A stretch of DNA of 64,000 bases from Armatimonadota bacterium. Its GTDB lineage: Bacteria; Armatimonadota; JADLDR01. Numbering within the stretch: position 1 is the stretch's first letter; every line of letters starts with the position of its first letter. The DNA is taken from NCBI GenBank assembly GCA_020846535.1, contig JADLDR010000141.1:1-64000 (forward strand), written 5' to 3'. This document shows, in pieces, positions 1,203 to 38,915 of this stretch. The position numbers and the translations under genes were made by a program. The notes beneath the pieces are model-generated. The model was not told the DNA's origin and did no database searches. It worked only from the letters and a program-made list of their open reading frames with translations.

Positions 1203-2189
1203 CTACGAATCCCATTCCCCCACGTACAGCACTTCTTCTTCCAGCGAAACCCCGTACTTTTCGAGGACACACTGCCGGACCTGCTCCGCCAGTCGCCGGA
1301 CATCGGAGGCTTGCGCTCCGCCCAAATTCACCAGGAAATTGCCATGCTGGGGCGATATCTGGGCATCCCCGACGCGCATTCCCTTGCAGCCCGCCTCCGA
1401 GATCAGGAACCCGGCGGGAACGACGCCCGCCTGGCGGAAACTGCCGGGCAGCGCAGGGAGACTTTCGGCCAGAGCGCGGTCGTAGACATTTTTAAAGAAG
1501 CTACCTGCGGATGGGTCGCTGGGCTGGCGCTCGCGGCGCTGGGCCTGATAGCCTTCCGCCTCCGCGAAAATACTCCCTTTGTCGGTATAAAAGAGTTCGA
1601 GTTCTACCGTCAGGACGATGGCCCGCTGCTCCGAGCCGTGGCGGAGGCGGCTGTCCCGATAGCGGAACTTCATCCAATCCGGGGGGACGGCCTTCACTTC
1701 CCCCCGGGTCAGAACATCCAGGCCGCGCACGAAATCGCCGATGTTCCGGCGGTAGGCTCCCGCGTTGGAGACCAGCGCCCCGCCCACCGTTCCGGGGATT
1801 CCCACCGCAAAGGCCAGCCCGCCCAGCCCCCGCTCTGCCGTCAGCTTGAAGAGCCGTTTGAAGGAGTGGCCGGTTTCCACCCACACATGCGTCCCTTCGA
1901 AGCGAATGCCGGTGCAGTGGTTCATGACCACCAGGCCCCGGTAGCTGCCGTCTCCGGGGACGAGATTGCTCCCGTGGCCGATCACCAGATAATCCAGGCT
2001 CGCCCGCTCCGCTTCCTGGATCACCGCCACCATATCCGTCACCCGCGTCGCCCGCCAGAACAGGTCCGCCGGGCCTCCTACCCGCATGGTGGTATGGTTC
2101 CTCAGCGGCTCGCTACGTTTAATCTGCGCGACGCCGGAAACGGCCTCTTCGAACCGGTTGTATCGCTCCGATAAATCCTGTGGTGCCAT
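1203..2189 (-). CDS. murB: UDP-N-acetylenolpyruvoylglucosamine reductase MurB
   Basis: A 328-residue flavoenzyme that reduces UDP-GlcNAc-enolpyruvate to UDP-MurNAc with NADPH, the second committed cytoplasmic step of peptidoglycan precursor synthesis. The FAD-binding part shows GHGSNL (about residues 71-76) and GIPGTVGGALVSNAGAY (130-146). Catalytic positions are recognisable: the Arg pair in FRYRDSR (176/178), the proton-donating Ser in PSAGSFFKN (230), and a Glu in the terminal EEEVLYVGEW. Length fits the family. It lies 9 nt downstream of the pseudokinase gene on the same strand and is probably co-transcribed with it. Usual partners such as murC or ftsQ are not next to it. Confidence 0.95.
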   Translation of the reverse strand: MAPQDLSERYNRFEEAVSGVAQIKRSEPLRNHTTMRVGGPADLFWRATRVTDMVAVIQEAERASLDYLVIGHGSNLVPGDGSYRGLVVMNHCTGIRFEGTHVWVETGHSFKRLFKLTAERGLGGLAFAVGIPGTVGGALVSNAGAYRRNIGDFVRGLDVLTRGEVKAVPPDWMKFRYRDSRLRHGSEQRAIVLTVELELFYTDKGSIFAEAEGYQAQRRERQPSDPSAGSFFKNVYDRALAESLPALPGSFRQAGVVPAGFLISEAGCKGMRVGDAQISPQHGNFLVNLGGAQASDVRRLAEQVRQCVLEKYGVSLEEEVLYVGEWDS

Positions 2190-2198
2190 TCGCCTGCT

Positions 2199-4544
2199 CT
2201 ATCCTCTTGTGTTCCGCCTCAGCAATACGTCTTTCGTGACCTCGTTATAATGGCCGATGTTGGTTTCGATATCCTCGCTGCCGGAGGGAAGCTGGGGCCG
2301 ATTCTTTTGCTCTTTATCGTCAGCCGCAACATAGCTTCCGGACAGACGGTCGTGGAGGCCGCGCCTCGTCCGGAAGAGAGCAGGCAGATAGCCCAGCCCC
2401 AGGGTGATCTCGCTCAGATGGCAGCCCAGCCAGCGGAGAAGCGCCTGGCGGGAGGTCAGCTTTTCGCCGGTGCGGTGGACGACCTTCAGCTTCATCAGCG
2501 ATTTGCCCAGGGTCTTGCCCCAGGTGGAGGTGGTGAAAATATAGTAGACCCCGGTAAGCCACAGCCCCACCCACCACTGCGGGCTGGAGACCAGCCCTAG
2601 CAGCGCCCGGATCGTCAGATCCGGCAGGTCTCCGGGCATCTGGCGCGACAGGCGGATGATGTCATAGGGAAGCCTCAAAAAACCGAGCGGGTCCGGCACA
2701 AAGTGGCGATGGGCGGCATTCAAAACGCCTGTCCCAATGCCATAGGAGAGGGCGACCAGGACCAGGGTATCGATCACCCTGGCAAAAAGCCGGGGAACCA
2801 GCCCGCCCCGCGGCGCGCCTCCGGCAATCGGCGGCGGCTTGGGCCGGGCTTTTTTTGGCCCTTTGTCCGCTTTCCGCTTGAATATGCGCTTCCAGAAAGG
2901 CTTGCGCGGCTCCGGTTTCGTCGTTCCCTCCACTGCCCCCGGGACAGCCTGGGATGGCGGCTCGATGGCCGGAGGAACGGCTGCCGGAAGCGCCGCAGGC
3001 AACGGTGGCGGTTCATGGGCCGGGGCGGCGGATTTCTCTTCCGCCGGAGGCTGAGCGGTTGCGGGAACCGGCTGGAGAGCGACCGGAGCTTCCACCATCA
3101 CCACCACAGGGATCTGGACGGATTTGACCTCGAAGGGATCGGCGTCCTTCAGGGTGAGGGTTCCCCTGTGAATGCCGGCAGGCAGACCGGTCGCATCGAC
3201 CGTCACATTGAACATCTGGGCGTTGCCCGTGTCTAGCACTTTGGAGCAGCGGATCCACGGTCCGGAAACCTCTACCTGAGCCTTCAAGGACCTTCCGTCG
3301 CTCCGGCTCGCCATAATCTGCTGCGCCTGGCTTTTGCCTGCCTGCTTCAAAAAGTTGAGGCTGGCCGGAACCGCCTTGACGAACGGCGACAGGATATCGA
3401 TGGTCACCGGGAAGGAAGCCGTCTCCGCCCCGAACGCATTGGAACGCAGGGTGATGCGGGCCTCGTTCGGGCCGGCAGGCAGGCGGGACGTGTCCAGGAT
3501 CAGGCTGACCTCCTGCGATTCCTCGCCCCCCAGGTCCAGCCGCGCCGGCGAAATGCGCCGCACCCATTCCGCGGAGGCGGATATCCCGGCAACGCGCAGC
3601 TTGGCCTGACCCCGGTTTTCCACCTTCACCCGCACATGATGCGCTTCGCCCCTGGGAATCGGAGCGTTCGTCCCTTCCACGAAGAGGGACAACTGGGGCG
3701 GCATCAGCACGGCCTTCAAGTCTTCCGCAAATCCCTTGACTCCGGTATAACGCTCCCTCGCCTCCCGCTTCAGGGAATTGGCGAGCAGTTTGGCGATGCC
3801 CGATTCCTCGAACCAGGCGGGCGGCTCCGCCCCCGCCTCGCCGGGCGCTCTGCCGGTCAGGAGCCTGTAGAGCAGCGCGCCCAGGGAGTAAATATCGGCC
3901 CGCGTATCGGGCGCTCCCCCGGCGGCCAGGCATTCGGGGGCGATATAAGCCTGAAGATCTTCTTTGGATTTGGTCGCGTCTTCGGGCATGGGTGCTCCTT
4001 TGGGGACGATATAAGCCTGAAGCTCTTCTTTGCCCGTTTTCGCCGCAGCGGAGGAGCCGTAATCGCCGACCTGCGCCTTGCCATCTTCGGCGATGAAGAT
4101 ATTGCCCGGGTGCAGCCCGTAGTGGCCCTGGCCGGTCACGTCATGGATATAGCCGACTGCCTCGCAGATTTGCAGCAGCAGGTCGCGGGCGTCTGCCGGT
4201 GACCATCCCCGGGGATTCTCCTTCAGAACGGCATCCAGGGTCTTGCCGGGCGCAAAGTCGCGCAGAACATACGCCTGGCGGTCTCCCTCGACCCACTTTT
4301 TGACCGCCACCAGGCCCGGATGGCTCAGCCCCATCGCCTGCTTCGCCCGGGATTCCATCTCCTGAAGCAGCGCCCCTCCCGGCGCATTGCAAAACTCCTT
4401 GAGGAGCATTTCCTGCCCCTGCAAGGCGTCCCGCACCCGGAAGGCCGAAACCTGCTTTCCGTCCGCCAGGCGCTCCAGAATCTCATACTGACCGAGTATT
4501 ATCTGATCGCTCATCGCTTCATCGGGTCTTTTTTCCTGTCTCAT
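2199..4544 (-). CDS. Membrane-anchored serine/threonine pseudokinase with C-terminal RDD domain
   Basis: A 781-residue multidomain protein. Residues 18-290 follow the Hanks kinase fold: a VAIK-type lysine (LLKEF, K49), the DYG magnesium loop (D161), IAPE (201-204) and ADIYSLGALLYRLLTG. The glycine-rich loop is poor. The catalytic HRDLKPxN loop reads HYGLHPGN (141-148), so the catalytic Asp is Gly and the Lys is His, which argues for a pseudokinase or a very weak kinase. Two Ig-like/BACON-like modules follow (about 290-490), then a Pro/Ala-rich linker, a basic stretch and a C-terminal RDD membrane domain beginning near RGGLVPRLFARVIDTLV. The kinase part is probably cytoplasmic. It precedes murB by 9 nt, so a role in cell-wall control is possible but unproven. 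Confidence 0.85.
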   Translation of the reverse strand: MRQEKRPDEAMSDQIILGQYEILERLADGKQVSAFRVRDALQGQEMLLKEFCNAPGGALLQEMESRAKQAMGLSHPGLVAVKKWVEGDRQAYVLRDFAPGKTLDAVLKENPRGWSPADARDLLLQICEAVGYIHDVTGQGHYGLHPGNIFIAEDGKAQVGDYGSSAAAKTGKEELQAYIVPKGAPMPEDATKSKEDLQAYIAPECLAAGGAPDTRADIYSLGALLYRLLTGRAPGEAGAEPPAWFEESGIAKLLANSLKREARERYTGVKGFAEDLKAVLMPPQLSLFVEGTNAPIPRGEAHHVRVKVENRGQAKLRVAGISASAEWVRRISPARLDLGGEESQEVSLILDTSRLPAGPNEARITLRSNAFGAETASFPVTIDILSPFVKAVPASLNFLKQAGKSQAQQIMASRSDGRSLKAQVEVSGPWIRCSKVLDTGNAQMFNVTVDATGLPAGIHRGTLTLKDADPFEVKSVQIPVVVMVEAPVALQPVPATAQPPAEEKSAAPAHEPPPLPAALPAAVPPAIEPPSQAVPGAVEGTTKPEPRKPFWKRIFKRKADKGPKKARPKPPPIAGGAPRGGLVPRLFARVIDTLVLVALSYGIGTGVLNAAHRHFVPDPLGFLRLPYDIIRLSRQMPGDLPDLTIRALLGLVSSPQWWVGLWLTGVYYIFTTSTWGKTLGKSLMKLKVVHRTGEKLTSRQALLRWLGCHLSEITLGLGYLPALFRTRRGLHDRLSGSYVAADDKEQKNRPQLPSGSEDIETNIGHYNEVTKDVLLRRNTRG
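3941..4032 (-). repeat. In-frame 26-bp direct repeat in the pseudokinase activation segment
   Basis: Two 26-bp copies, 3941-3966 and 4007-4032, differ at one base and are offset by 66 nt, exactly 22 codons. They encode KEELQAYIVP and KEDLQAYIAP on either side of a short Pro/Ala/Glu-rich spacer, just before the APE motif. The segment where a kinase normally carries its activation loop has therefore been locally duplicated without losing the reading frame. Confidence 0.85.
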
Positions 4545-4723
4545 ATTTATTTCCCCTGCAAGGAATGTTTCTCCTTTATATGGAACGTTTCCGGAGCCGC
4601 GCCGGTTGCGCCCGGAACGAATTCGTCTGGAGCGCGGCGAATGATGTAGCGGAACGGATCGCGGCTTCGATGCGTCTTATAGATATAGGGCGCGATCAAC
4701 GGACTTTTCGAGGAGGTATTCCT

Positions 4724-5944
4724 ATGCTCAGATGGTTTTTGCGGTTTGGGCTTCTAACCCTGGCGGCGCTGGCCGTCGGCCTGCCGATCAGCGGCCAGAA
4801 TACACCTTCCGCTCCGGTCGAAGGAACGGTCAGCCAGGCATACCGCCTCACTTTTCCGAGGGTGCGGCTGGTGCTGCAACTGGCGGACGGCAAGCGAGTG
4901 ATCGGAGAGCCGGTCTACCAGTATAAGAATGATACGATAGATTTGACCGATATGAATACCATCGAGAATCTTGGCTGCTATTACTGGCTCCCGGGGGATC
5001 GGGTCAGGGCGCGCCTCTCCCGGCAGGAGGCCACTGACAACTCCTATCTCTTTACGGAAGTCCGCCGCCTGGCCGGTGGCCGTGTGGCGATCCCGAACCG
5101 GCCTGACAAGCCGGAACCCCGGCCTTCCGAAGAAAAGCCCGAAGCGGAACCTCCGGCCCCCAAACCGGAGCCGGACACGCCCGCAAAGACGCCTGCCCCC
5201 GAGCCGCAGAAACCGCTTCAGCCGAAAACGGAGGAGCCTGTGAAGCCCGAACCCAAAGAGTTGACCGTCAAGATCACTACCGACAAATCCGCCTACGCGC
5301 CCGGCGAGACCGTCCGCATTCGGCTGACACTGAAGAACAATACCGAAAGCGAGCGGCAGATCACCTTCCCTTCCGGCCAGCGGTTCGAGATCACGGCGGA
5401 GCGGGAAGGTCGCAAGGTCTGGCAGTGGTCACACGGCAAAATGTTCATCATGGCCTTCGGAAACCTGCGCCTGGGGCCGGGCCAAAGCTTTGCGGCAGAA
5501 GAGCGGTGGGATCAGAAAGACAACGACGGGCAGCCCGTTCCCCAGGGAACCTATACCCTCTCAGCCTGGATAACGGCCAGACAGCTCTCCGACCTGCCAC
5601 AGGCCAGGACCACTTTCCGCATCGGGACGGAGTACCGGAGCATGACCACTATCCGGGAAATCCTGGATGAGCCGGATCGATATCTGGGCAAGCGCGTCGG
5701 CTTGCAGGGCCGCTACCGGGGATGGAAACCCGATCCCGAAGCCCCGCACTGCAAAATGGGGCCGCCTGTCACCCGCAGCGATTGGGCCATCGAAGATGAC
5801 ACCGGAACGCTCTACGTCACCGGCAAAAGCGTTTACGACCCGGTGGAGGACATCGGCAAACCGCTCCGCCTGGAGGCCACTGTTCTGAAAAACGAGGAAA
5901 AAGGACAGATTTACCTTCGTTCGGAAAAAGCGGTTAAAGGGTAG
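4724..5944 (+). CDS. Secreted protein with BsuPI-like and OB-fold-like domains
   Basis: A 406-residue protein. The ATG at 4724 is chosen for the AGGAGGT ribosome-binding site at 4711-4717 and because a signal peptide (MLRWFLRFGLLTLAALAVG, cleavage near SGQ) then starts the protein. After an N-terminal region of unknown fold comes a Pro/Glu/Lys-rich linker. A BsuPI-like beta domain follows (from ELTVKITTDKSAYAPGE to QGTYTLSAWI), with the VWQWSHGKMF and GPGQSF features of the family. The C-terminal 100 residues (ILDEPDRYLGKRVGLQG to GQIYLRSE) resemble an OB fold. It is probably exported, but the substrate is unknown; calling it a proteinase inhibitor from the BsuPI name alone would be unsafe. 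It is transcribed divergently from the pseudokinase gene. Confidence 0.75.
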   Translation: MLRWFLRFGLLTLAALAVGLPISGQNTPSAPVEGTVSQAYRLTFPRVRLVLQLADGKRVIGEPVYQYKNDTIDLTDMNTIENLGCYYWLPGDRVRARLSRQEATDNSYLFTEVRRLAGGRVAIPNRPDKPEPRPSEEKPEAEPPAPKPEPDTPAKTPAPEPQKPLQPKTEEPVKPEPKELTVKITTDKSAYAPGETVRIRLTLKNNTESERQITFPSGQRFEITAEREGRKVWQWSHGKMFIMAFGNLRLGPGQSFAAEERWDQKDNDGQPVPQGTYTLSAWITARQLSDLPQARTTFRIGTEYRSMTTIREILDEPDRYLGKRVGLQGRYRGWKPDPEAPHCKMGPPVTRSDWAIEDDTGTLYVTGKSVYDPVEDIGKPLRLEATVLKNEEKGQIYLRSEKAVKG

Positions 5945-14090: not shown

Positions 14091-14873
14091 CTAGTCCTCG
14101 GTTTTGGCGCTCGCGATGGAATTTCTGACCTTCGGGGCGAGGAAGGCTTTCAGCTTGTCCGCCACGATGCGCGGGTTGTCGCCGGACTGGATGGAGAGGA
14201 TACCTTCCACCATCATCTCCCGGATTAGGATTTCATCCGCACTCCGGTGGTGCAATTTCTTTCCCAGAGGCAGGAAGATCAGGTTGGCCGAGGAGACACC
14301 GTAAAGGGTGGCGATAAAGGCCCCGGCGATGGCAGGCCCCATGCTGCCCGGATCGCTCAGGTTATGGAGCATATGAACCAGCCCCATCACCGTTCCGATA
14401 ACCCCCAGCGTCGGGCCGAAGCCTCCGGCGGTCGAGAAGACGCTCTCCCCCATCTTGTGTCGCTCCTCCAGGAAGGCGATATCCGTTTGCAGGATTTCGC
14501 GCACCACCTCCGGGTCTGTCCCGTCGATAGCCAGGTTGATCCCCTTTTGCAGAAACTCGTCCTGGATGCCCCGGGCCTCCTCTTCCAGCACCAGCAGCCC
14601 TTCGCGTCGGGCTTTTTCGGCAAACGAAACGAGCAAACCGATAATTTCACCGGGGTCGACATGTTTTCCGATGAAGGCGTGTTTCATGATCATCGGGATG
14701 CCGACGATCTGCTGGAGCGGAAAACACATCATGGTGGCGCCCAACGTCCCTCCGAAAACCAGAATGGCAGCCGGGATATTGATCAAGCCCGCCGGGTCTC
14801 CTCCTTCCATAATCATCGATCCCAGAAGAGCGCCCCAGGCCAGAATCATCCCGACGATGGTCGCCAGATCCAT
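14091..14873 (-). CDS. motA: Stator protein MotA
   Basis: A 260-residue protein with four hydrophobic segments and a large cytoplasmic loop. It contains PAAILVFGGTLGATMM, GLLVSFAEKARREGLL, GTDPEVVREIL and GPTLGVIGTVMGLVHML, all typical of MotA/PomA. The ATG at 14873 is chosen because a GGAGGAT ribosome-binding site precedes it; an in-frame start 14 codons upstream would add a charged, unconserved stretch. MotA5MotB2 stators use ion flow to push on FliG. A 118-nt gap upstream, before flbD, contains a GC-rich hairpin. Confidence 0.95.
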   Translation of the reverse strand: MDLATIVGMILAWGALLGSMIMEGGDPAGLINIPAAILVFGGTLGATMMCFPLQQIVGIPMIMKHAFIGKHVDPGEIIGLLVSFAEKARREGLLVLEEEARGIQDEFLQKGINLAIDGTDPEVVREILQTDIAFLEERHKMGESVFSTAGGFGPTLGVIGTVMGLVHMLHNLSDPGSMGPAIAGAFIATLYGVSSANLIFLPLGKKLHHRSADEILIREMMVEGILSIQSGDNPRIVADKLKAFLAPKVRNSIASAKTED

Positions 14874-14991
14874 CCTATCCTCCGAATACTTATCGTCTTT
14901 CCGCCAGGGCTGCAAGGCGCGGCAGCCCCGCGCCAGGGGCCGCTACCCCTGTGTCGCGATTCCAAGCCCTGTTAATAAACGTCACCGCTAT

Positions 14992-15228
14992 TCAGCCCGT
15001 CTCTTCTTGCAGGCCGTCTTCTTCCGGCAGGGGCCGGACGATCAACGGGCCGACCTCTTTGCGGTACTCCACGACCTTCGTAATCACCTCATCCAGCGTT
15101 TCACGGACCAGAAGCTTCTTGCCGTTGACCAGAGTGATCATGGTATCGGGGGAGGCTTCCACCAGTTCGATCAGGTCGGCGTTCACCGCCAGCACGTGCG
15201 TTGTGTTGAAACGGGTTACTTTAATCAC
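14992..15228 (-). CDS. flbD: Flagellar protein FlbD (SwrD-like)
   Basis: A 78-residue protein with the compact FlbD signature: IKVTRFNTTHVLAVNADLIE, then SPDTMITLVNGKKLLVRETL and EVITKVVEYRK. The start is a GTG at 15228 with GAGGA upstream. FlbD/SwrD lies between flgE and motA in many flagellar operons and in Bacillus increases motor power. Here too it sits between flgE and motA, so the same role is likely. A perfect 14-bp inverted repeat lies between it and flgE (15245-15275). Confidence 0.9.
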   Translation of the reverse strand: MIKVTRFNTTHVLAVNADLIELVEASPDTMITLVNGKKLLVRETLDEVITKVVEYRKEVGPLIVRPLPEEDGLQEETG

Positions 15229-17465: not shown

Positions 17466-20400
17466 TCATACGGTGTAATCGATGGCCTGCTGCGAAAGGG
17501 CCGCCTGCTGGATCGACCCAATGGCGACGGCCTCCCGGGTCTTGCTCCAGGATGCGCCGTGCCTGCCCGGCTTCGGCTGGCTCCACGCCTGCCTCTGGCC
17601 GAACCCGTGCTGCTGCACCGAAACCTGCACGCCCCCCAGGGCGATGTTCCTTTCGGTCAGCATGTTCCGGAGCTGCGGCTGGCTCGTTTCCAGGATTTCC
17701 TTCACCCCGGAGTGCGCTGTATCGAAGCGAAGCCACAGTTCGCCTCGCTCCGCCTGAACCGTCAGACGAATCTCGCCCAGATGTTCGGGGCTGAGTTTGA
17801 GAACGATCTCCTGCCTCGCGCCGTTTTTCGGCAGGGCAACCAGCCTGTCCGCGATCTGCCCGAACAGCACGTTTCGGTCCGCTTCGGCGCGGGGCGCAGC
17901 CCCGGCCGACTCCGCTTTCGCGGCTCCTGACTGTCCGGCTGTGCCTGTCCACACCGCTTCCGGGATCACCGGCTCAAAGGCATCGGCTTTCGCCTTGCCC
18001 TCCGGCTGAACGCCTTTGACGCTTGCTTCGACGCTCGAAGGCCCGGCGGCGGGCGAGGGATAGCTTTCCAGCTTTTCGGCAGCGCGGAGAAGGGCGTTTG
18101 CGTCCCATCCGGCCAGCAGAGACCCCTGCTGAGGCCGCGGCGAACGGCCTCTCCCTTGTATTATCGGCATTGCCGCCGTTTTCATTATAGGCTCCCGAAC
18201 GCCGATTTCCGCCTCCGGCCTATCCAACTGTGCGCGTACCTCCGGGCGGCCTGGCTGCGCTGACGCGCTGCGCGAGGGCCGGGCTTCCAGCATGGTCCGG
18301 GCCGGAGAATGTGCCTCGCTCCTTCGCCCGAATTCCATCAGGCGGCTTTCCACCGGAACGGTTCTCCCGGAAAGCATCTCCGTCGCCGCCGTCCGGCTGC
18401 CGAACCAATCGGCCATCCGGATTCCCGACTGCGCCGCCTCTTTCCCTTCGGAAAGCGAAACGCTCCGGGTTCCCGGCTCCACCGGCTGTTGAACCGCCCG
18501 GCTGGCAGGCACGGCGTCTTCCGCAACCACCGGCTTCCGATCCGGCGCGAAGGTCTGCGCTTTCACAGCCTTCAAAGGCGCTTCCCCTTCCGCAGGCTGC
18601 TGCTCGGATGCCTGGCTGGAAGGCTGCGCCGCCACAGGCTCCCTGCCCGCGCGCTCCGGCGCAGCCACCTCTGCAATCGACGGCTTCGCATGAACCACCG
18701 GAGGCCGCTTCGCCGATCCCTCTGTCTTCATGGATTCAGGGACAATAGGATCGCTGCCCGCCTTCAGGGGAGCCATTGGATTGCGATTCATCTCAGAGGC
18801 TGGCCTGTCCTGAACGCTCGTCATCGGAACTTCCGGGAATGACTCGGCGGGGCTATCGCCGGCTGTCTGCTGCGAAACGCCAGGCTTAGCTACCGCTTCC
18901 GATGCCGGCATGTCCATCGGTGCGGCTTCAGGTTGCCGGGGAGCCTTATGTGCATTTCCCCTCGGCTCAGGCGCTCTTGCAGGCCGCGTTTCGGTCGCTT
19001 TCATCTCAGCCGATACAACGCCTTGCTTGCGCTCGGAAACCAGCTCGGTCAGTTGCGCAACCGGCTTTTCCGGTAGTTCGGATACCGGCCCGGCCTGATT
19101 CGGTGATGACTGCGCTTCGGGAAATCGGGCCGCTACCTGCGAGACAGCCTCACTTTCTGTCCGCTCAGTGAAAGCCGCTTTGGCAGGCGGAACGGTTCGC
19201 ACGGCTGCCGCCTGCGGTTCGGGAAGGCGCATCTCCAACTTGCCGGATATTGCATCCGGCGCGCCCTGCGCCTCGCGAATCTGACCGGGATCCATGATGG
19301 TCTCTCGCCCTGATTCGGCTACGGCTGGCCCTGCTTCAACGACAGGCATTCCCACCCTTTCCATCTCAACCTGCCCGCTTTGCATCAAGCGGCTTGCGCC
19401 AACCGATTCCTGCGGCGGATCGCCTGCCGAAACAGGGCGGGTTTCCGCCTGCGGCACCGGAGCGATATCGGCTTCCGGAGCCACCGAAATCATCGGGCTG
19501 TAGGCCGGCTTCAGGCTTTCCTGGCCGGACGCAGACGCGATCTCGACTTTCATCTCTCTCAAGACCTGCACATCGGGCATAGCGATGGCATCGCCACGCT
19601 CGCCCTCGCCAGCCTGCCGGATGCCGGGCTCGATGCTGACAGCTTCCGCTACAGGCTTTTGCCGGGGCGCAGCGATTTCGCCTGCCTCGGCAGGAGCCGT
19701 CTGAGGCGGAACATCCGCGCCCTGACTCTGAGCTATCCCATGGCGGCTATCAGTGAAAGAGATCGGCTGAGGGACAGGCTCGGTCTTCGGCGCGTTGTCA
19801 GAGGTCGCCGCTGGCTGCCATCGGGCCGCAACGCCTTCAGGCGGCGTGACATAAACGGCCTTTACTGCCGGCGCAGGTTCTTCCGGCAGTTTGCCAGACT
19901 GTGTTCTGACGGGGGCGGCCTTGCCTGGCGCAGTTTCCCCCTGTTCGGGCGATTGCGTCCGGGAAGGAGCGATACTCTCTGCCCTTACTTCCTTACTCGC
20001 CGGAAGGAAAGGGATTCGATCATTTGCCGGAGGCAGAGAATCCTGCACAGACAATACAGGCTGAGCATCCGCCTCTGCCGGGGGCAGCGCCCGGAACTGA
20101 GCCGGGGCCGCATCCAGGGAAACACCCTCTTCCACGCTCCTTGTCTCGACAGGCATAGCTGCCGCCTGCCAGATTTCCGAGGACACAAAGGCGACTACCA
20201 TCACCTCCGGCAATATCTCCTTCGCTGCCTTTGCCGGATCGGGCCGTTTCATCTCGTCTGCGACAGGCTCGGCGGAGGACTCCCCGGCGGTTTCATCAAC
20301 CCTGTCGGGATCCGTTTTCCTAACCACGGGTTCGCTGTCAGCCGGATCGATGACAGGCAGGCGGGCTGCAACCGTCTCTTCCGCCGGTTCCAAGCTCATC

Positions 20401-20816
20401 CCGGAGATGACAGCCTCAGCGATGGGCGCAGCCTCTTCGGCTCGCGCCTCGTTCGTTAAAGGAGCCGCCTCTTGCATCGCTTCAGGCGTCTCTTCCGTTA
20501 TCGGCGGAAATGCCTGCCGGATCGTTTCAGTCGCTTCCTCCGGCGAAAGGCTGGCACCGGGATCAGGGTCGCCCTGAGCCGCCACAGGCAGACCGATGCC
20601 TTCGACAGGCAGGAGGACTTTCACCTGTCTTTCCGGCAAAAGGGGGATCGTCCCAGGCCATGAGCCTGTTTCCGCCGCTTTGCCGGGCAGCGCCATCCCT
20701 TCTTTCCCCAGGGTATCCTGATAGAGTTTCAGGAAGTCCCCGCTGGCGGGCCGGGGAACCGCGCCTACCGGCTCTGCAGAGAAAGCCATCGTTTCTATGG
20801 GAAACATGATTTCCAT
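17466..20816 (-). CDS. fliK: Very long flagellar hook-length control protein FliK
   Basis: At 1116 residues this is about twice the size of typical FliK proteins. The C-terminal Flg_hook domain is clear (ARQEIVLKLSPEHLGEIRL, GELWLRFDTAHSGVKEIL, LRNMLTERNIALGGVQVSV), and a Gln/Ser-rich tail follows. Upstream some 950 residues are low-complexity, rich in Pro, Ala, Glu, Val and Ser, with recurring acidic and PVAE-like patches, as expected for an extended molecular ruler. A strong AAGGAGGTG site precedes the ATG at 20816. FliK measures hook length and triggers the FlhB switch. The unusual length may imply a long hook or a different measuring geometry. Confidence 0.88.
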   Translation of the reverse strand: MEIMFPIETMAFSAEPVGAVPRPASGDFLKLYQDTLGKEGMALPGKAAETGSWPGTIPLLPERQVKVLLPVEGIGLPVAAQGDPDPGASLSPEEATETIRQAFPPITEETPEAMQEAAPLTNEARAEEAAPIAEAVISGMSLEPAEETVAARLPVIDPADSEPVVRKTDPDRVDETAGESSAEPVADEMKRPDPAKAAKEILPEVMVVAFVSSEIWQAAAMPVETRSVEEGVSLDAAPAQFRALPPAEADAQPVLSVQDSLPPANDRIPFLPASKEVRAESIAPSRTQSPEQGETAPGKAAPVRTQSGKLPEEPAPAVKAVYVTPPEGVAARWQPAATSDNAPKTEPVPQPISFTDSRHGIAQSQGADVPPQTAPAEAGEIAAPRQKPVAEAVSIEPGIRQAGEGERGDAIAMPDVQVLREMKVEIASASGQESLKPAYSPMISVAPEADIAPVPQAETRPVSAGDPPQESVGASRLMQSGQVEMERVGMPVVEAGPAVAESGRETIMDPGQIREAQGAPDAISGKLEMRLPEPQAAAVRTVPPAKAAFTERTESEAVSQVAARFPEAQSSPNQAGPVSELPEKPVAQLTELVSERKQGVVSAEMKATETRPARAPEPRGNAHKAPRQPEAAPMDMPASEAVAKPGVSQQTAGDSPAESFPEVPMTSVQDRPASEMNRNPMAPLKAGSDPIVPESMKTEGSAKRPPVVHAKPSIAEVAAPERAGREPVAAQPSSQASEQQPAEGEAPLKAVKAQTFAPDRKPVVAEDAVPASRAVQQPVEPGTRSVSLSEGKEAAQSGIRMADWFGSRTAATEMLSGRTVPVESRLMEFGRRSEAHSPARTMLEARPSRSASAQPGRPEVRAQLDRPEAEIGVREPIMKTAAMPIIQGRGRSPRPQQGSLLAGWDANALLRAAEKLESYPSPAAGPSSVEASVKGVQPEGKAKADAFEPVIPEAVWTGTAGQSGAAKAESAGAAPRAEADRNVLFGQIADRLVALPKNGARQEIVLKLSPEHLGEIRLTVQAERGELWLRFDTAHSGVKEILETSQPQLRNMLTERNIALGGVQVSVQQHGFGQRQAWSQPKPGRHGASWSKTREAVAIGSIQQAALSQQAIDYTV

Positions 20817-25191: not shown

Positions 25192-26808
25192 TTATCTCTT
25201 CTCCTCAGCCAGCCAGCCCTTCAGCAGGAGAGCCACCATTTCAGGCTTCTGGCTTGCCAGGTCCGCGATCTCGCGCAGGTCGGAATCTTCCTTCAGGGCG
25301 ATTTCGGTATGGTCTTTGTTCTTATCCTCAAGCTGCGCCGTCGCCTGCTGCATCAGGGCTTCGAGGGACACCGGCTCTGCGGGCAGGGCCATCTGTTCGG
25401 CTGCCAGATCTTCCAGGGGCCTGCGGCGGGTCATCCGCCAGAGGGCGAAGGCGAAGACCAGCACCAGAACGGTCGGGACGGCTTTCGCCAGCATGTCCTG
25501 AATCTGCTGCCACCTTTCCTGCTTGGCGAGATCGAGGTTCCGCTGCTTCTCCGCATCCCGGTTGAAGGGAATGGCGGCTACCGTGACATTGGTCGCCTCC
25601 GTGCCGGTCGCCAGGGTGACGAACTTGTTCACGGTGGCGATCAGGTCGCGGTTGATCTCCTTCTGGCCCGAATCGACTAGAACCGCCACCGACAGCTTTT
25701 CGAGGTTGCCGGGGGCCGTGACCTTTTTCTCGACCGTATAGGAAGTGTTATAGTTGACGATCTCATCGCTGCGTTTCTGCGTCGAATTGCCGCCGGTCGC
25801 CTGCGGGTAGGAGGGGGTTGCCATAGAACCGGCTACATTGGATGCGGTTCCGGGGATGCCGCCTTCGATCCCTCCCTGCCCTTTGAAGTTTTCCTCTGTG
25901 GTCTGCTGGCTTTCGACCACACCGTGGTCGGTTCCAGCTACGGGCTGGTAAGTTTTCTTTTCCGTCTCCTGACGGTCGAAGTCGAGGTCGGCGGAAACCT
26001 GCACCTGGGCGTTGCCTTCTCCCAGAACTCGATCCAGGGTGCGCTGGATCTTGCCGGACATCTCCTTTTCGTAAGTGCGCCGGGCTTCCAGTTGGGTCAT
26101 GGCGGAAGCGGTCAGGCCGCCGCTCTCACCCGCCTCGGAGCCGTCATAAAGAGTTTCCCACTGGGAATCGGTGATGCGGATATTTTCGCCCTTCAGTCCC
26201 TCCACGCTGTGGGAGATGAAATAAACGGCGGAGCGCACGTCCTGCCTGGAGATTTCCTGACCGGGCTTGAGGGTGAGCATCACCGCCGCCTTCGCGTCCT
26301 CTTCCTTATCGGTATAAAGGCTCGGTTTGGGCTGGGTGATCATTACGGAGGCGCGGCGGACGCCCTCGATCTGTTCCAGGGTGCGGCTGATCTGGCCCTC
26401 CAGAGCACGCTTATACTGGATATCCTGCATCTTCTCGGACATGCCCAGAGCGGGCTTATCGAGGGCCTCCATGCCGATGACGCCCTTTTTGCTAGGCAGC
26501 CCTTCCCCTGCCAGCCGAAGGCGGGTTTCGTCTACCTTCTGGGAGGCGACGCGGATCGCCTGGCCGCCCCGGTCGAGTTTGTAGGGAACGCCCATTTCGT
26601 CCAGTCGGTTGATAATCTGAGAGGCGTCTTCGGAGTCGAGGTTGCTGTAAAGAGGGGCCATTTCGGGGGAACGACCAAAGGAGGCGAAGGCCCCCAGCAT
26701 CGCCACCAGCATGACGGCGATGCCTGCCGTGATCGCCCGGTTCTGGCCGGACAGTCCGCCCCAGAATTGCAGGATTTGCTCCCGCGTACGGTTGAGAAAT
26801 TCGCCCAT
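25192..26808 (-). CDS. fliF: Flagellar MS-ring protein FliF
   Basis: A protein of about 538 residues from the chosen start. A first membrane segment (ITAGIAVMLVAMLGAFASF) is followed by ring-building motifs (APLYSNLDSEDASQIINRLD, ALEGQISRTLEQIEGVRRAS), a variable periplasmic stretch and a second membrane segment (AVPTVLVLVFAFALWRM). The C-terminus has the conserved FliG-binding tail (EIADLASQKPEMVALLLKGWL). FliF forms the MS ring, the base for the rotor and export gate. The ATG at 26808 has GGAG upstream and matches the usual FliF start; an in-frame ATG at 26880 would add 24 polar residues. Confidence 0.95.
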   Translation of the reverse strand: MGEFLNRTREQILQFWGGLSGQNRAITAGIAVMLVAMLGAFASFGRSPEMAPLYSNLDSEDASQIINRLDEMGVPYKLDRGGQAIRVASQKVDETRLRLAGEGLPSKKGVIGMEALDKPALGMSEKMQDIQYKRALEGQISRTLEQIEGVRRASVMITQPKPSLYTDKEEDAKAAVMLTLKPGQEISRQDVRSAVYFISHSVEGLKGENIRITDSQWETLYDGSEAGESGGLTASAMTQLEARRTYEKEMSGKIQRTLDRVLGEGNAQVQVSADLDFDRQETEKKTYQPVAGTDHGVVESQQTTEENFKGQGGIEGGIPGTASNVAGSMATPSYPQATGGNSTQKRSDEIVNYNTSYTVEKKVTAPGNLEKLSVAVLVDSGQKEINRDLIATVNKFVTLATGTEATNVTVAAIPFNRDAEKQRNLDLAKQERWQQIQDMLAKAVPTVLVLVFAFALWRMTRRRPLEDLAAEQMALPAEPVSLEALMQQATAQLEDKNKDHTEIALKEDSDLREIADLASQKPEMVALLLKGWLAEEKR

Positions 26809-26927
26809 AGCTCCAATCTCATCGCGCGAAACGAGCCATCCCTGGTCTTCCGGCGTCTTTTCGGTTGTTTCAGGGCGCATCCTGCGCCCGGGGATATGTC
26901 CTATCTCCTGAGGAAGCGGTTATGCCA

Positions 26928-32673: not shown

Positions 32674-35322
32674 TTATGCCGGGCCGTTATTCGACGCCGC
32701 CCCCAGCAATTCCTTCACGAGCCGGGCCATTTCTTCGGGGGAAAAAGAACGCTTCGGGATGACTTCGGCCATGCGCTGGGCCAGAGAGCGCCGGTCCTGC
32801 AATGTTAGGTCTTTGCCGGTAACCACCAGAACAGGGGTGTTTTCGGTCTCGGGGCGGGAGCGCATCCACTGGAGGATCGCCATCCCGTCCGGCTGGGGCA
32901 TCACAAGATCGAGTACCAGCAGATCAGGGGGCTGGCTTTCGATGGCGTGCATGGCCTCCTGGCCGTTATCGAATCCGGCGACCTTCAGATTCAGATTTCG
33001 CAGAATCTCCGTTTCGGAAGCGAGGAAGGAAGGATCGTCCTCGACCACCATCACCTGCCGATAGTCTCCGTCGGGAACGGCCTTCCGGACGGCGGCGATG
33101 AGCCGTTCCTGGGAAAAAGGCTTGAAGAGAAAATCCATGGCCCCGTGCAGGACGGCCCTCTGCTCCTCATCCTGACCGCTGGAGACGATGATGGCCGTCC
33201 GATCCAGCCCCGGTATCTCCTGGAGATGGGCGATCACCTCCCAGCCGTCCATCCGGTCTCCCAGGTTGATATTGACGATCACCAGCCGGGGCGGGGAGAG
33301 GCGGGCCAGAGAGAGGGCCTTGCCGCCGCTGTCGACCCAGCGGCAGTGATAACCGGCCTCCAGCAGCACCCCGCACATCATCTCCCCGAACGCCGGATCG
33401 TCCTCCACCACCAGCACATCGACGGGGGCATCCGCCGCCGGAAGGCGGCTCGTATCGGCCACCGGCAGGGTAAAATAGAAGGCGCTGCCTTTCCCCGGCC
33501 CTTCGCTCTCCAGCCAGATGCGGCCCCCGTGCGCTTCCACAATCTCCTTGCAGATCGCCAGCCCGAGGCCCGTGCCCCCGATGCCCTGCCGGGCCGGGTC
33601 CTGTATCCGCACGAACTTGCCGAAAAGCTGGCCGGCAGCTTCCGCCGGGATGCCGAGGCCCTGGTCGGCCACATAAACGCGCACCGACCCCGTTTCTTCC
33701 TCCGTAAACGCCCCGATCCTGACCTGCCCTCCCTGAGGGGAATATTTGATGGCATTGGAGAGCAGGTTTGCCAGGCACTGCTGAATGCGGTCCGGGTCGG
33801 CCTTGATATCGGGCAGGCCGTCGGGAACCTCCATGATCAGGGAATGGCGGTCGCTCTGACGGGCAAATACATCGACTGCGCCCGCGATCAAATGTTTCAG
33901 GTTGACCGGCCTCCTGTCGTACACCTGTCTGCCGGACTCCATGCGCTGCACATCCAGGAAGTCGTTCACCAGGTCGGTCAGGCGTATGGCTTCCCGGTGC
34001 ATGATGGTGAGGTAATGTTTGCGCTTGTCTTCAGGCAGGTCCCGGTAGAGAAGCAGCTCCGTGAAGCCGACGATGGCTCCCAGAGGAGTCCGGAGGTCGT
34101 GGCTGACCACATTGACCATCTCGGTCTTCATCCGCTCGATGGCGCGCTCCGGTCGGATATCCCGGCAGAGTACGATGGCCCCTTCGATCTCCTCTCCGTC
34201 GCGCACGGGCGTAGCGGTCACGGCCACCGGAATGCGTTCCCCGCTCCGGCTGGTGATAGTGCTTTCCAGGGTGACGGTGCGGGCTTCCCGGATGGCCCGG
34301 CCCGATGCGGAAGTCTCCTGCGTGAGAGGCTGGCCCGGCCCGGTGTGCGGACTGAGCAATTCGATGATGGTCTTTCCCACCGCATCCGACACCGGGATAC
34401 CGGTCAACTGTTCCATGGAAGGGTTCCAAAGGCGAACGGTCAGGTTGAGGTCTGCGACCAGCATCCCCTCGCCCACCCCCTGAATGATCGCCTCCAGCTC
34501 GTTCTGCTGCTCCCGCAGGGAACGGTTGCGCTCCTCCAGCGACCCGAGCGCTTGAGCCAGCCGGTTTCGCATCCTGTTGAAGTTCTGCGCCATCTGGGAC
34601 ACCTCCAGCGGCAGGACCCCCTTGAATTCCAGCGGCCGTGGCTCCTCCTGGCCGGTTACCTGATCGAGCATCGCGGTCAGGGCGGTCAGGGGGCGCACTA
34701 CCGAGCGATGAATCAGGAACGCGCTGAACAGGGAGAAAATGAAAAGCGCCAGCACGGCCAGCCCCATCAGCTTTTGCGCTTTCCACGCCTGGGCGCGATA
34801 TTCGGAAGCGCGCCGGATCAACAGGGCCCGTTCCTCTTCGGAAAAGTCGACCAGGGCGGTATGAACGGCATCGATATGCTTTTTGCCCTCCAGAATCAGG
34901 GCGATTCTCCGCTCGGTCGGCAGAGAATCGCCGGCTTTCAAAATAGGCGACATCACTTGATCCCGCCAGTATTCGCCTTCCTGCCAGAGACGTCCGAGGC
35001 GGGCCGTCTGTTCCGGACTGAAGGACGCGGAGCGGCTCAGATCATCCAAACCCTGTTGGAATGAGGCATATTCCTGCCGGGCTTCGCGGGGAAACTCGGG
35101 ACGGCGGGCGAGGGTATAGCCGCGCAGAGCCGCCGACATCCGGCCTGCATGACTCTGCGTATGCACGGCCAGATCCAGGGCTCTCATCGTCCCGAGCATC
35201 CGGGATATAGCCTGTTCTTCATACTGCCGGGTAAGCCAAAAGGTCGCTCCCGCCATGACGAGCAGCAGCGCCTCCACCCCTCCCAGCAGCCAGAGGCCGT
35301 GTACTATCGAGCAACGTTTCAT
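32674..35322 (-). CDS. Membrane hybrid sensor histidine kinase with two receiver domains
   Basis: An 882-residue protein: N-terminal membrane segment, a CHASE3-like sensor region (about 35-185), a second membrane segment, HAMP, PAS (LEAIIQGVGEGMLVADLN), HisKA (VNVVSHDLRTPLGAIVGF), HATPase (N box LANLLSNAIKYSP; G boxes ADQGLGIP and GGTGLGLAICKEIVEAHGG), then two REC domains. In the first REC the phospho-acceptor position is Asn (LVIVNINLG, N684). The second keeps Asp (LLVLDLVMPQPDG, D805). It is followed 34 nt upstream on the same transcript by a single-domain response regulator, its probable partner. The signal is unknown. Confidence 0.92.
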   Translation of the reverse strand: MKRCSIVHGLWLLGGVEALLLVMAGATFWLTRQYEEQAISRMLGTMRALDLAVHTQSHAGRMSAALRGYTLARRPEFPREARQEYASFQQGLDDLSRSASFSPEQTARLGRLWQEGEYWRDQVMSPILKAGDSLPTERRIALILEGKKHIDAVHTALVDFSEEERALLIRRASEYRAQAWKAQKLMGLAVLALFIFSLFSAFLIHRSVVRPLTALTAMLDQVTGQEEPRPLEFKGVLPLEVSQMAQNFNRMRNRLAQALGSLEERNRSLREQQNELEAIIQGVGEGMLVADLNLTVRLWNPSMEQLTGIPVSDAVGKTIIELLSPHTGPGQPLTQETSASGRAIREARTVTLESTITSRSGERIPVAVTATPVRDGEEIEGAIVLCRDIRPERAIERMKTEMVNVVSHDLRTPLGAIVGFTELLLYRDLPEDKRKHYLTIMHREAIRLTDLVNDFLDVQRMESGRQVYDRRPVNLKHLIAGAVDVFARQSDRHSLIMEVPDGLPDIKADPDRIQQCLANLLSNAIKYSPQGGQVRIGAFTEEETGSVRVYVADQGLGIPAEAAGQLFGKFVRIQDPARQGIGGTGLGLAICKEIVEAHGGRIWLESEGPGKGSAFYFTLPVADTSRLPAADAPVDVLVVEDDPAFGEMMCGVLLEAGYHCRWVDSGGKALSLARLSPPRLVIVNINLGDRMDGWEVIAHLQEIPGLDRTAIIVSSGQDEEQRAVLHGAMDFLFKPFSQERLIAAVRKAVPDGDYRQVMVVEDDPSFLASETEILRNLNLKVAGFDNGQEAMHAIESQPPDLLVLDLVMPQPDGMAILQWMRSRPETENTPVLVVTGKDLTLQDRRSLAQRMAEVIPKRSFSPEEMARLVKELLGAASNNGPA

Positions 35323-38740: not shown

Positions 38741-38815
38741 GGCGCTATCGTCTAGCGGTTAGGACGGGTGGTTTTCAGCCACTAAACCGGGGTTCGACTC
38801 CCCGTAGCGCTACCA
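38741..38815 (+). tRNA. tRNA-Glu (anticodon UUC)
   Basis: A full cloverleaf with acceptor GGCGCTA/TAGCGCT, D arm GTCT..GGAC, anticodon loop TTTTCAG (anticodon TTC) and T arm CGGGG-TTCGACT-CCCCG. The CCA end is encoded. Confidence 0.97.
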
Positions 38816-38832: not shown

Positions 38833-38915
38833 GCCGAGGTGGCGGAATTGGCAGACGCGCACGTTTGAGGGGCGTGTGGGAAACCATACGGGTTCAAGTC
38901 CCGTCCTCGGCACCA
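38833..38915 (+). tRNA. tRNA-Leu (anticodon GAG)
   Basis: Acceptor GCCGAGG/CCTCGGC with encoded CCA. The anticodon stem CACGT/GCGTG surrounds the loop TTGAGGG (anticodon GAG). It has the extra variable arm expected of tRNA-Leu and a T arm with TTCAAGT. It lies 17 nt after tRNA-Glu, so they are co-transcribed. Confidence 0.96.

Follow-up and report, generated by a model that had tools for sequence, protein, structure and literature searches.

Bacterial proteins with a kinase fold and lost catalytic motifs include the pseudokinase families ActPs1-3, GLW, CP1, DYD and DLHK, and EssB/YukC is described as a transmembrane scaffold pseudokinase (PMC12599244, of which sections are drawn on here). A separate body of work concerns operons of FtsZl1, a tubulin-like GTPase, and vWA proteins, in which kinases are frequent components and diverged GTPases are frequent neighbours of FtsZl1; these operons are proposed to encode a membrane-remodelling machine (Makarova and Koonin, 2010, PMC2875224, likewise drawn on in part). 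The gene considered here lies near the start of a 64,000-nucleotide (nt) stretch of an Armatimonadota bacterium (assembly GCA_020846535.1, contig JADLDR010000141.1, positions 1 to 64,000), which is referred to below as the window. Its product is a kinase-fold protein with immunoglobulin-like (Ig-like) modules and an RDD domain. The sequence strongly supports its status as a pseudokinase, and it is probably a divergent member of a conserved pseudokinase-Ig family present in 17 genomes of the phylum. On balance we favour the reading that it is a catalytically dead, membrane-anchored kinase-fold scaffold, a divergent member of a family tied to a vWA/FtsZl1 module. The gene, its recognised parts and its downstream neighbour are as follows (amino acids, aa, are numbered in the protein).

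2199..4544, minus strand: pseudokinase gene, 781 aa, encoding in order a kinase domain, two Ig-like modules, a Pro-rich and basic linker and RDD
3693..4511, minus strand: kinase-fold domain, aa 12-284, from the PF00069 match (77 bits) and an AlphaFold2 model compared with PknA
4398..4400, minus strand: kept beta3 Lys, K49 (MLLK), from the motif table
4347..4349, minus strand: R66 at the alphaC Glu position, Arg in 17/17 family members
4257..4295, minus strand: family signature W84 ... R95 D96 (KKW; LRD at the hinge), W and R in 17/17
4101..4124, minus strand: HYGLHPGN as the catalytic loop, aa 141-148, with Gly (Gly143) for the HRD Asp and Asn148 kept
4056..4064, minus strand: DYG, aa 161-163, metal-binding Asp D161 kept, from the motif table
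3999..4032, minus strand: repeat copy 1, KEELQAYIVPK, in the activation segment
3933..3966, minus strand: repeat copy 2, KEDLQAYIAPE, in the activation segment and bearing the APE motif
3390..3692, minus strand: Ig-like module 1, aa 285-385, from a held-out Ig profile, AlphaFold2 models and matches to solved structures
3087..3380, minus strand: Ig-like module 2, aa 389-486, from AlphaFold2 models and matches to solved structures
2796..2912, minus strand: basic segment, aa 545-583 (13 K/R, 2 D/E), ahead of the first hydrophobic stretch and overlapping the start of the RDD match
2337..2807, minus strand: RDD domain, aa 580-736 (PF06271)
1203..2189, minus strand: murB, assigned by Pfam, an open reading frame (ORF) 9 nt downstream of the pseudokinase gene

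The frame opens with an ATG at 4544, just before which stands AGGGGAA. The Pfam Pkinase profile (PF00069) matches aa 20-237 at 77.2 bits (cut-off 31.7), and an AlphaFold2 model of aa 1-500, built from a four-row alignment with a mean predicted local distance difference test (pLDDT) score of 73, reaches values mostly of 70-95 in ten-residue blocks over the kinase core. The structure prediction proposed in the first-pass annotation of this DNA gives a PknA-like kinase fold: compared with PknA (4ow8), the kinase part of the model aligns over 250 residues with a Z score of 27.5 and a root-mean-square deviation (rmsd) of 2.5. Two features expected of an active Ser/Thr kinase are missing from this fold, namely the HRD Asp and the pair formed by the beta3 Lys and the alphaC Glu, which is broken by Arg in place of Glu while K49 is kept. 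The glycine loop is degenerate (LADGKQVSAF), and APE and DIYSLG are retained. A degenerate DNA pattern for HYGLHPGN has its sole exact match among 291 genomes of the phylum in the window gene. That annotation had called the protein a pseudokinase on the grounds that HYGLHPGN replaces HRDLKPxN, that the glycine loop is weak and that the VAIK Lys and the DxG Asp remain; all of this holds, the last two residues being K49 and D161, and the term is well supported since the HRD Asp is also absent from all 16 relatives found. The loss of the alphaC Glu and the lack of a transmembrane segment between the kinase domain and the Ig modules had been missed. Orthologues with an intact HRD, which would have pointed to a sequence error, did not emerge; a sequence error as the source of the loss is ruled out because the 16 relatives share it and the frame is open. 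Loss of the base and of the alphaC Glu leads us to infer that phosphotransfer would be absent, and the kept Lys, Asn and Asp make nucleotide or metal binding probable.

General searches gave little that is specific to this protein. A whole-protein scan of genome contigs for close orthologues led to two generic kinases, a search with the C-terminal 542 aa found mainly RDD domains, and a plasmid search found generic kinases at less than 60% identity. Kinase-domain matches in PADLOC and NCBIfam (MAD6, PglW, PD-T4-6) were set aside as generic kinase matches, those to NCBIfam falling far under their cut-offs, and we do not count them as evidence for a defence role.

The family was defined within the phylum, in a census set of 291 genomes. 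In what follows G denotes a genome (G000 being that of the window), C a contig, L a locus and f a family of genomes. A profile built on the Ig regions of three proteins found matches in 26/291 genomes, many of them in proteins with a kinase-like domain ahead of the Ig modules. The profile A3, made from 13 pseudokinase-Ig proteins (the window row and 12 others), separates 17 of the 291 genomes at 310 bits or more from the next kinase at 92.5 bits. The 17 are 11 genomes of f13, five of f22 and the window genome, in which the window gene was the one family pseudokinase found and the next kinase scores 76 bits. In an alignment of the 17 members, built with a profile that included the window row, the HRD Asp occurs in none (14 Gly, 2 Ala, 1 Ser); the alphaC Arg, the Trp (within KKW or RRW), the hinge Arg, the loop Asn and the DxG Asp are present in all 17, and the beta3 position is Lys in 14 and Arg in three. 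None of 48 other kinases in the tree described below pairs the Trp with the hinge Arg-Asp, and three or four have the alphaC Arg (judged by eye). When a profile built without the window row was run on ORFs that include no other family member, the window protein came first of 50 distinct ORFs reported, at 105 bits against 71.9, and the Ig part of that profile gave it 33 bits (E value 2e-7). Trees spanning the N-lobe to the DxG motif group the window protein with 14 pseudokinases in a set of 63 rows (support 99/97) and with 12 when eight rows are left out (100/99). Two other candidate sisters, picked after the tree had been seen, were rejected by the approximately unbiased test (p-AU 0.002 and 0.024). 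Signature residues, held-out rank and tree grouping all point to membership in the family.

The neighbourhoods of the relatives connect the family with a recurring set of genes. A gene termed vWA1, whose product has a Pfam vWA domain and a tail with a weak FHA-like match (hhalign probability 51%), adjoins the pseudokinase gene in 10/16 relatives, in all five of f22 and in five of the 11 of f13. The order in f22 is pseudokinase, vWA1, TM3 (a TM protein), coil2 and FtsZl1 (PF13809) in three genomes (G074, G075, G077), runs as far as coil2 in G076 and is followed as far as TM3 in G051, where the contig ends. In f13 a PQQ propeller protein with zinc-ribbon-like cysteines precedes the pseudokinase in seven genomes (G012, G040, G063, G064, G068, G071, G072) and vWA1 follows it in five (G065, G069, G070, G071, G072). 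FtsZl1 stands in the pseudokinase cluster of four relatives, the three f22 genomes with the full order and G072, where it lies about 7 kb further on along the same strand. The vWA1 gene of G040 is about 4 kb off on the opposite strand, and in G012, G063, G066 and G068 it is on another contig, in G066 and G068 possibly through a contig break. Outside these two families, G001 (locus L143, contig C317, 7292-8893) has, beside FtsZl1 and vWA1, a gene for a 533-aa Ig-like protein in which a hydrophobic segment is present and no kinase domain was recognised; perhaps the pseudokinase slot is here filled by Ig modules alone.

The setting of the window gene differs from this. It is flanked by murB and by a divergent gene that encodes a BsuPI domain, and neither vWA1, the PQQ propeller nor FtsZl1 adjoins it; none of the relatives' neighbour genes was found by clustering over the window's first 16 kb or by cluster profiles over the whole window. 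The position next to murB had been noticed before, and the two genes do follow one another on the same strand, an adjacency seen in the window genome only. The Shine-Dalgarno-like sequence AGAGGA stands immediately before the pseudokinase stop codon which, together with the 9-nt gap, makes co-transcription of the two genes likely. Homologues of the partner proteins are found on two other contigs of the same genome. Contig C114 carries PQQ4 (182 bits), vWA1 (203 bits) and TM3 (105 bits) head to tail; as called, PQQ4 and vWA1 share one base, and the position taken by the pseudokinase in G071 and G072 is thus empty. Contig C248 carries an FtsZl1 orthologue, which scores 605 bits against a profile of three operon FtsZl1 proteins (34-37% identity, about 700-940 aa). 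With the same profile, where gene calling found the gene, G001 scores 446 bits and eight other genomes outside f13 and f22 score 79-234; in G015 the FtsZl1 gene was masked by another ORF in gene calling. The tetranucleotide match to the first 20 kb of the window is 0.95 for C114 and 0.88 and 0.96 for C248, against 0.46-0.78 for contigs of five other genomes. The simplest account is that the vWA/FtsZl1 module is dispersed over contigs in the window genome.

Other observations in this genome touch the same proteins. A MurJ gene (L188 on C114, 12294-13829, 335 bits) is located some 0.9 kb past the vWA1-TM3 operon, and a further gene of that locus (14104-15081) has a weak match to Double-GTPase 2 at 24.5 bits, under the Pfam cut-off. 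Two contigs of 3.2 kb (L138 and L139; C224 and C203) each consist almost wholly of one Tubulin_2 gene; the proteins are 86% identical and represent either a duplicate or two strains in the assembly. A 716-aa kinase ORF on C187 (L007/L087) reads HGAVRPDN without the HRD Asp, has an altered DFG region and belongs to another branch of the tree.

Across the phylum PF13809 occurs in 17/17 pseudokinase genomes against 67/274 others. In a search of 48 hand-chosen genomes of the 291, vWA1 exceeds 150 bits in 16/17 pseudokinase genomes (the exception, G064, is 80% complete, and seven of the 16 are in the profile) and in two of 31 others examined, G001 and G015; these co-occurrence counts come from two families and a lone genome and are phylogenetically non-independent. 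Two f22 genomes, G073 and G026, have none of pseudokinase, vWA1 and FtsZl1. A partnership of the pseudokinase with the vWA/FtsZl1 module is what we infer from these patterns, and it would include the window protein.

The activation segment of the window protein is lengthened between DYG and APE, and it is here that the repeat lies. Its two copies of 34 nt are identical at 31/34 positions and are 66 nt apart from start to start, which amounts to 11 codons at a 22-codon spacing with about 11 dissimilar codons between the copies. All three nt differences change an amino acid and none is silent. The best ungapped self-match of the gene scores 25, whereas 60 codon-shuffled versions of it do not exceed 12. 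The first-pass annotation was right that an in-frame direct repeat exists and that it sits at the activation segment, and wrong in its length of 22 codons, the repeated unit being 11. Copy 1 falls within aa 167-192, a stretch that is disordered in the AlphaFold2 model (pLDDT below 50). The alignment proposed as a test of conservation finds the repeat in the window protein and in no relative, and two DNA probes of it matched, among the loci examined, only those that hold the window gene. A role as a conserved functional element was set aside, since no relative has the repeat and 14 aligned relatives are without APE; it is most plausibly an insertion peculiar to this protein, in an activation segment predicted to be disordered. 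A 15-nt repeat, D6, likewise has a 66-nt spacing and is taken for chance.

The two Ig-like modules of the first-pass annotation are borne out as beta-sandwiches in the AlphaFold2 model of aa 1-500, at about aa 285-385 and 390-485, and by matches to solved structures. Folded alone from one sequence they reach a pLDDT of 76 and match Ig-like chains. The best structural matches are to chains of the axonemal central apparatus (Foldseek E value 1e-9; Z score 11.8, rmsd 6.6 over 191 residues), with other Ig-like folds (S-layer, fimbrial chaperone, peptidase fibril) close behind at Z scores of about 10. Intracellular proteins are among the closest solved matches, including the axonemal central apparatus and the SPD-2 domain of CEP192. 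Anchoring through RDD, also proposed earlier, agrees with the Pfam match (PF06271, 76.9 bits against a cut-off of 24.1; 77-80 bits across scans). On the Kyte-Doolittle scale no 19-residue window that starts before aa 560 has a mean above 1.43, and windows exceed this value from aa 580, after the strongly basic stretch at aa 545-583. By the positive-inside rule a basic flank lies on the cytoplasmic side. With no transmembrane segment before aa 580, the Ig modules would therefore lie on the cytoplasmic side together with the kinase domain, and they are probably cytoplasmic. The earlier description of the protein as envelope-sensing is not upheld by this topology. Among the relatives a C-terminal hydrophobic window exceeds the threshold in 8/16 (G074, G075, G076 and G077 of f22; G072, G040, G069 and G070 of f13), and G051 has a weaker stretch recognised by eye. 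Hydropathy windows revealed no C-terminal hydrophobic segment in G063, G012, G071, G065, G066 and G068, and in G064 the contig stops inside the pseudokinase gene.

In the scaffold that we favour, the kinase fold would bind nucleotide, or be held by it, with no transfer of phosphate. The cytoplasmic partners, FtsZl1 and the possibly FHA-like tail of vWA1, would dock on the kinase surface and on the Ig-like modules, which would be cytoplasmic as well, while the RDD domain would anchor the protein at the membrane, a task that in about half of the relatives would fall to a lone hydrophobic segment at the C-terminus. The scaffold would thereby link the membrane and vWA parts with FtsZl1, and its coupling to murB would have come about by rewiring expression locally. 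A more specific version, which we hold to be rather improbable, is that the modules are cytoplasmic ASH/PapD-like domains through which an FtsZl1 polymer is tethered to the membrane, and that the kinase fold works as a nucleotide-gated switch; the protein would then be a bacterial counterpart of the microtubule-decorating ASH proteins of cilia and centrosomes.

Several observations weigh against the scaffold reading or against placing the window protein in it. The interaction with the vWA/FtsZl1 partners is a putative one, and the window locus has no synteny to those of the relatives. FtsZl1 and vWA1 occur without the pseudokinase in G001 and G015, as does FtsZl1 alone in G067 of f13, so the module does not need it; the counts in its favour are non-independent as described, and the window genome is a fragmented assembly with an estimated contamination of 8.4%. 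The HRD Asp is also absent from 4/48 other kinases of the tree. The kinase part of the held-out profile taken alone puts the window protein modestly ahead, at 67 bits against 59, and the Ig part gives a higher score to an unrelated Ig protein of 1691 aa (L076) than to the window protein, 58.5 against 33 bits. The branches concerned are long (1.04 and 0.95 changes per site). The window protein keeps APE, which the 14 aligned relatives are without (12 have no residues there and G074 and G075 read YAPPS), and it has an RDD domain where the relatives show a single hydrophobic segment at the C-terminus or none. It is possible that the window gene is an independent recruit and not a strayed member of the module. 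Retention of K49, N148 and D161 also leaves room for residual or altered catalysis.

This last point is the basis of an alternative in which the protein is a repurposed enzyme that carries out another ATP-dependent transfer, AMPylation as in SelO or a low level of phosphotransfer. The Lys is kept in 14/17 members and the Asn and Asp in 17/17, a pattern like that of E. coli SelO (as given in sections of PMC12599244), but Arg stands at the alphaC Glu in 17/17 and at the beta3 Lys in 3/17, the glycine loop is degenerate and the Pfam kinase match in the two relatives scanned reaches only about the DxG region; we regard such an enzyme as unlikely. The decay of a paralogue that was once an active kinase, under relaxed constraint and with the repeat as its sign, would suit an 11-codon repeat that no relative has and whose three differences all change amino acids, as well as the long branch and the isolated genomic position. 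It is very unlikely in view of a frame that is open over 781 codons and in which the RDD and Ig modules are intact, the retention of APE and DIYSLG, and the constancy throughout the family of the loop Asn, the DxG Asp, the alphaC Arg, the W and the hinge R.

The genomic position itself suggests a regulator of the cell wall, an RDD-anchored pseudokinase that binds or tunes MurB or the machinery for peptidoglycan precursors. Mycobacterial MviN (MurJ), which is thought to act via a pseudokinase domain, offers a model for this. A murB gene 9 nt downstream on the same strand, the Shine-Dalgarno-like motif close to the pseudokinase stop codon and the MurJ gene about 0.9 kb past the vWA1-TM3 operon of the same genome all speak for it, but adjacency to murB is seen in one genome only, and a BLAST comparison of the 16 neighbourhoods, in which no MurB profile was searched, found no protein that clusters with the MurB of the window. 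We consider a role of this kind rather unlikely. An envelope sensor, whose external Ig modules would sense the state of the envelope and signal via the pseudokinase, takes its appeal from the presence of both Ig-like modules and a membrane domain, but the lack of a hydrophobic window before aa 580 and the basic segment put kinase and Ig modules on the same side, the relatives show at most one hydrophobic segment, at the C-terminus, and the closest solved Ig matches include intracellular ones, which makes it highly improbable.

The scaffold reading matters chiefly for the family. A kinase-like part of the module that has the catalytic base in 0/17 members and keeps its nucleotide and metal residues suggests that scaffolding is its function in part of the phylum, and the family supplies defined proteins and residues for testing this. 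The window genome suggests that parts of the module can be dispersed, in which case synteny alone would miss them.

Elsewhere in the window, the divergent plus-strand gene at 4565-5944 encodes a BsuPI (intracellular proteinase inhibitor) domain at 92.8 bits and a Pro/Glu-rich stretch; its true start may be the ATG at 4724, ahead of a signal-like sequence. ORFs resembling flagellar export genes were recognised by eye from 6383 onward, FliF is at 25192-26880, and a 1116-aa protein at 17466-20816 has a single Pfam match within the limit applied, to Flg_hook, the C-terminal domain of FliK. Two large hybrid histidine kinase/response regulators (CHASE3-HAMP-PAS and GAF-PAS) are found at 32674-35322 and 42025-44310, and two tRNA genes at 38741-38812 and 38833-38912.

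Within the phylum the pseudokinase can be compared with two other kinds of kinase fusion. Proteins of f9 (G008, G220) and the protein G076b likewise have a kinase domain followed by similar Ig modules, and those of f9 are adjoined by FHA and vWA genes; they differ in an intact HRD Asp (HHDLKP), in having no transmembrane segment found and in their place elsewhere in the kinase tree. On the tree the f9 proteins were rejected as orthologues, and their sequences make f9 an Ig fusion separate from the pseudokinase family. A second kinase-like protein is encoded near the f9 loci (L073/L092 on C87 of G008, where it reads HGALHPGG, and L131 of G220). Kinase-RDD fusions in G024 (L067, C17) and G038 (L077, C36) share a Ser/Thr kinase and a C-terminal RDD in one frame, whereas they have an intact HRDIKP, an N-terminal zinc ribbon (by eye) and no Ig seen, and they too fall elsewhere in the tree; RDD anchoring of kinases thus occurs elsewhere in the phylum too.

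The described bacterial pseudokinase families share with the window protein a kinase fold, the loss of a catalytic motif and, often, a link to the membrane, and the text of the review contains no occurrence of 'RDD', 'Ig-like' or 'Armatimonad' (PMC12599244). ActPs2, ActPs3, GLW, DYD and DLHK are described with changes in the motifs that bind ATP or metal, unlike the window protein; in ActPs3/MviN all three catalytic motifs are degraded and the activation loop is deleted, whereas here K49 and D161 are kept and the loop is lengthened. The motifs of E. coli SelO (WHLK, Hgvmntdn, DYG) resemble those of the window protein, a comparison of residue patterns only. The CP1 entry Q8F1M0 (VLIK, Hkslcpgn, DFS) has the same lone loss of the HRD Asp, and therefore the motif pattern alone is no novelty. 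Descriptions of CP1 give it a COG3899 domain and no transmembrane region, whereas the window protein has RDD and no other large Pfam domain (COG3899 was not searched). One literature library yielded no relevant paper by title for a bacterial RDD pseudokinase, none for a pseudokinase in an Armatimonad and none that links a pseudokinase with FtsZl1/vWA operons, and the word 'pseudokinase' does not occur in the paper on those operons (PMC2875224). As in the operons described there, Tubulin_2 (FtsZl1-type), vWA, membrane proteins and a kinase-fold protein lie near each other in some relatives, and a possible Double-GTPase, sub-cut-off at 24.5 bits, lies by the vWA operon of the window genome. What differs is that the kinase member is here a pseudokinase with Ig-like modules and that in the window genome the module extends over three contigs.

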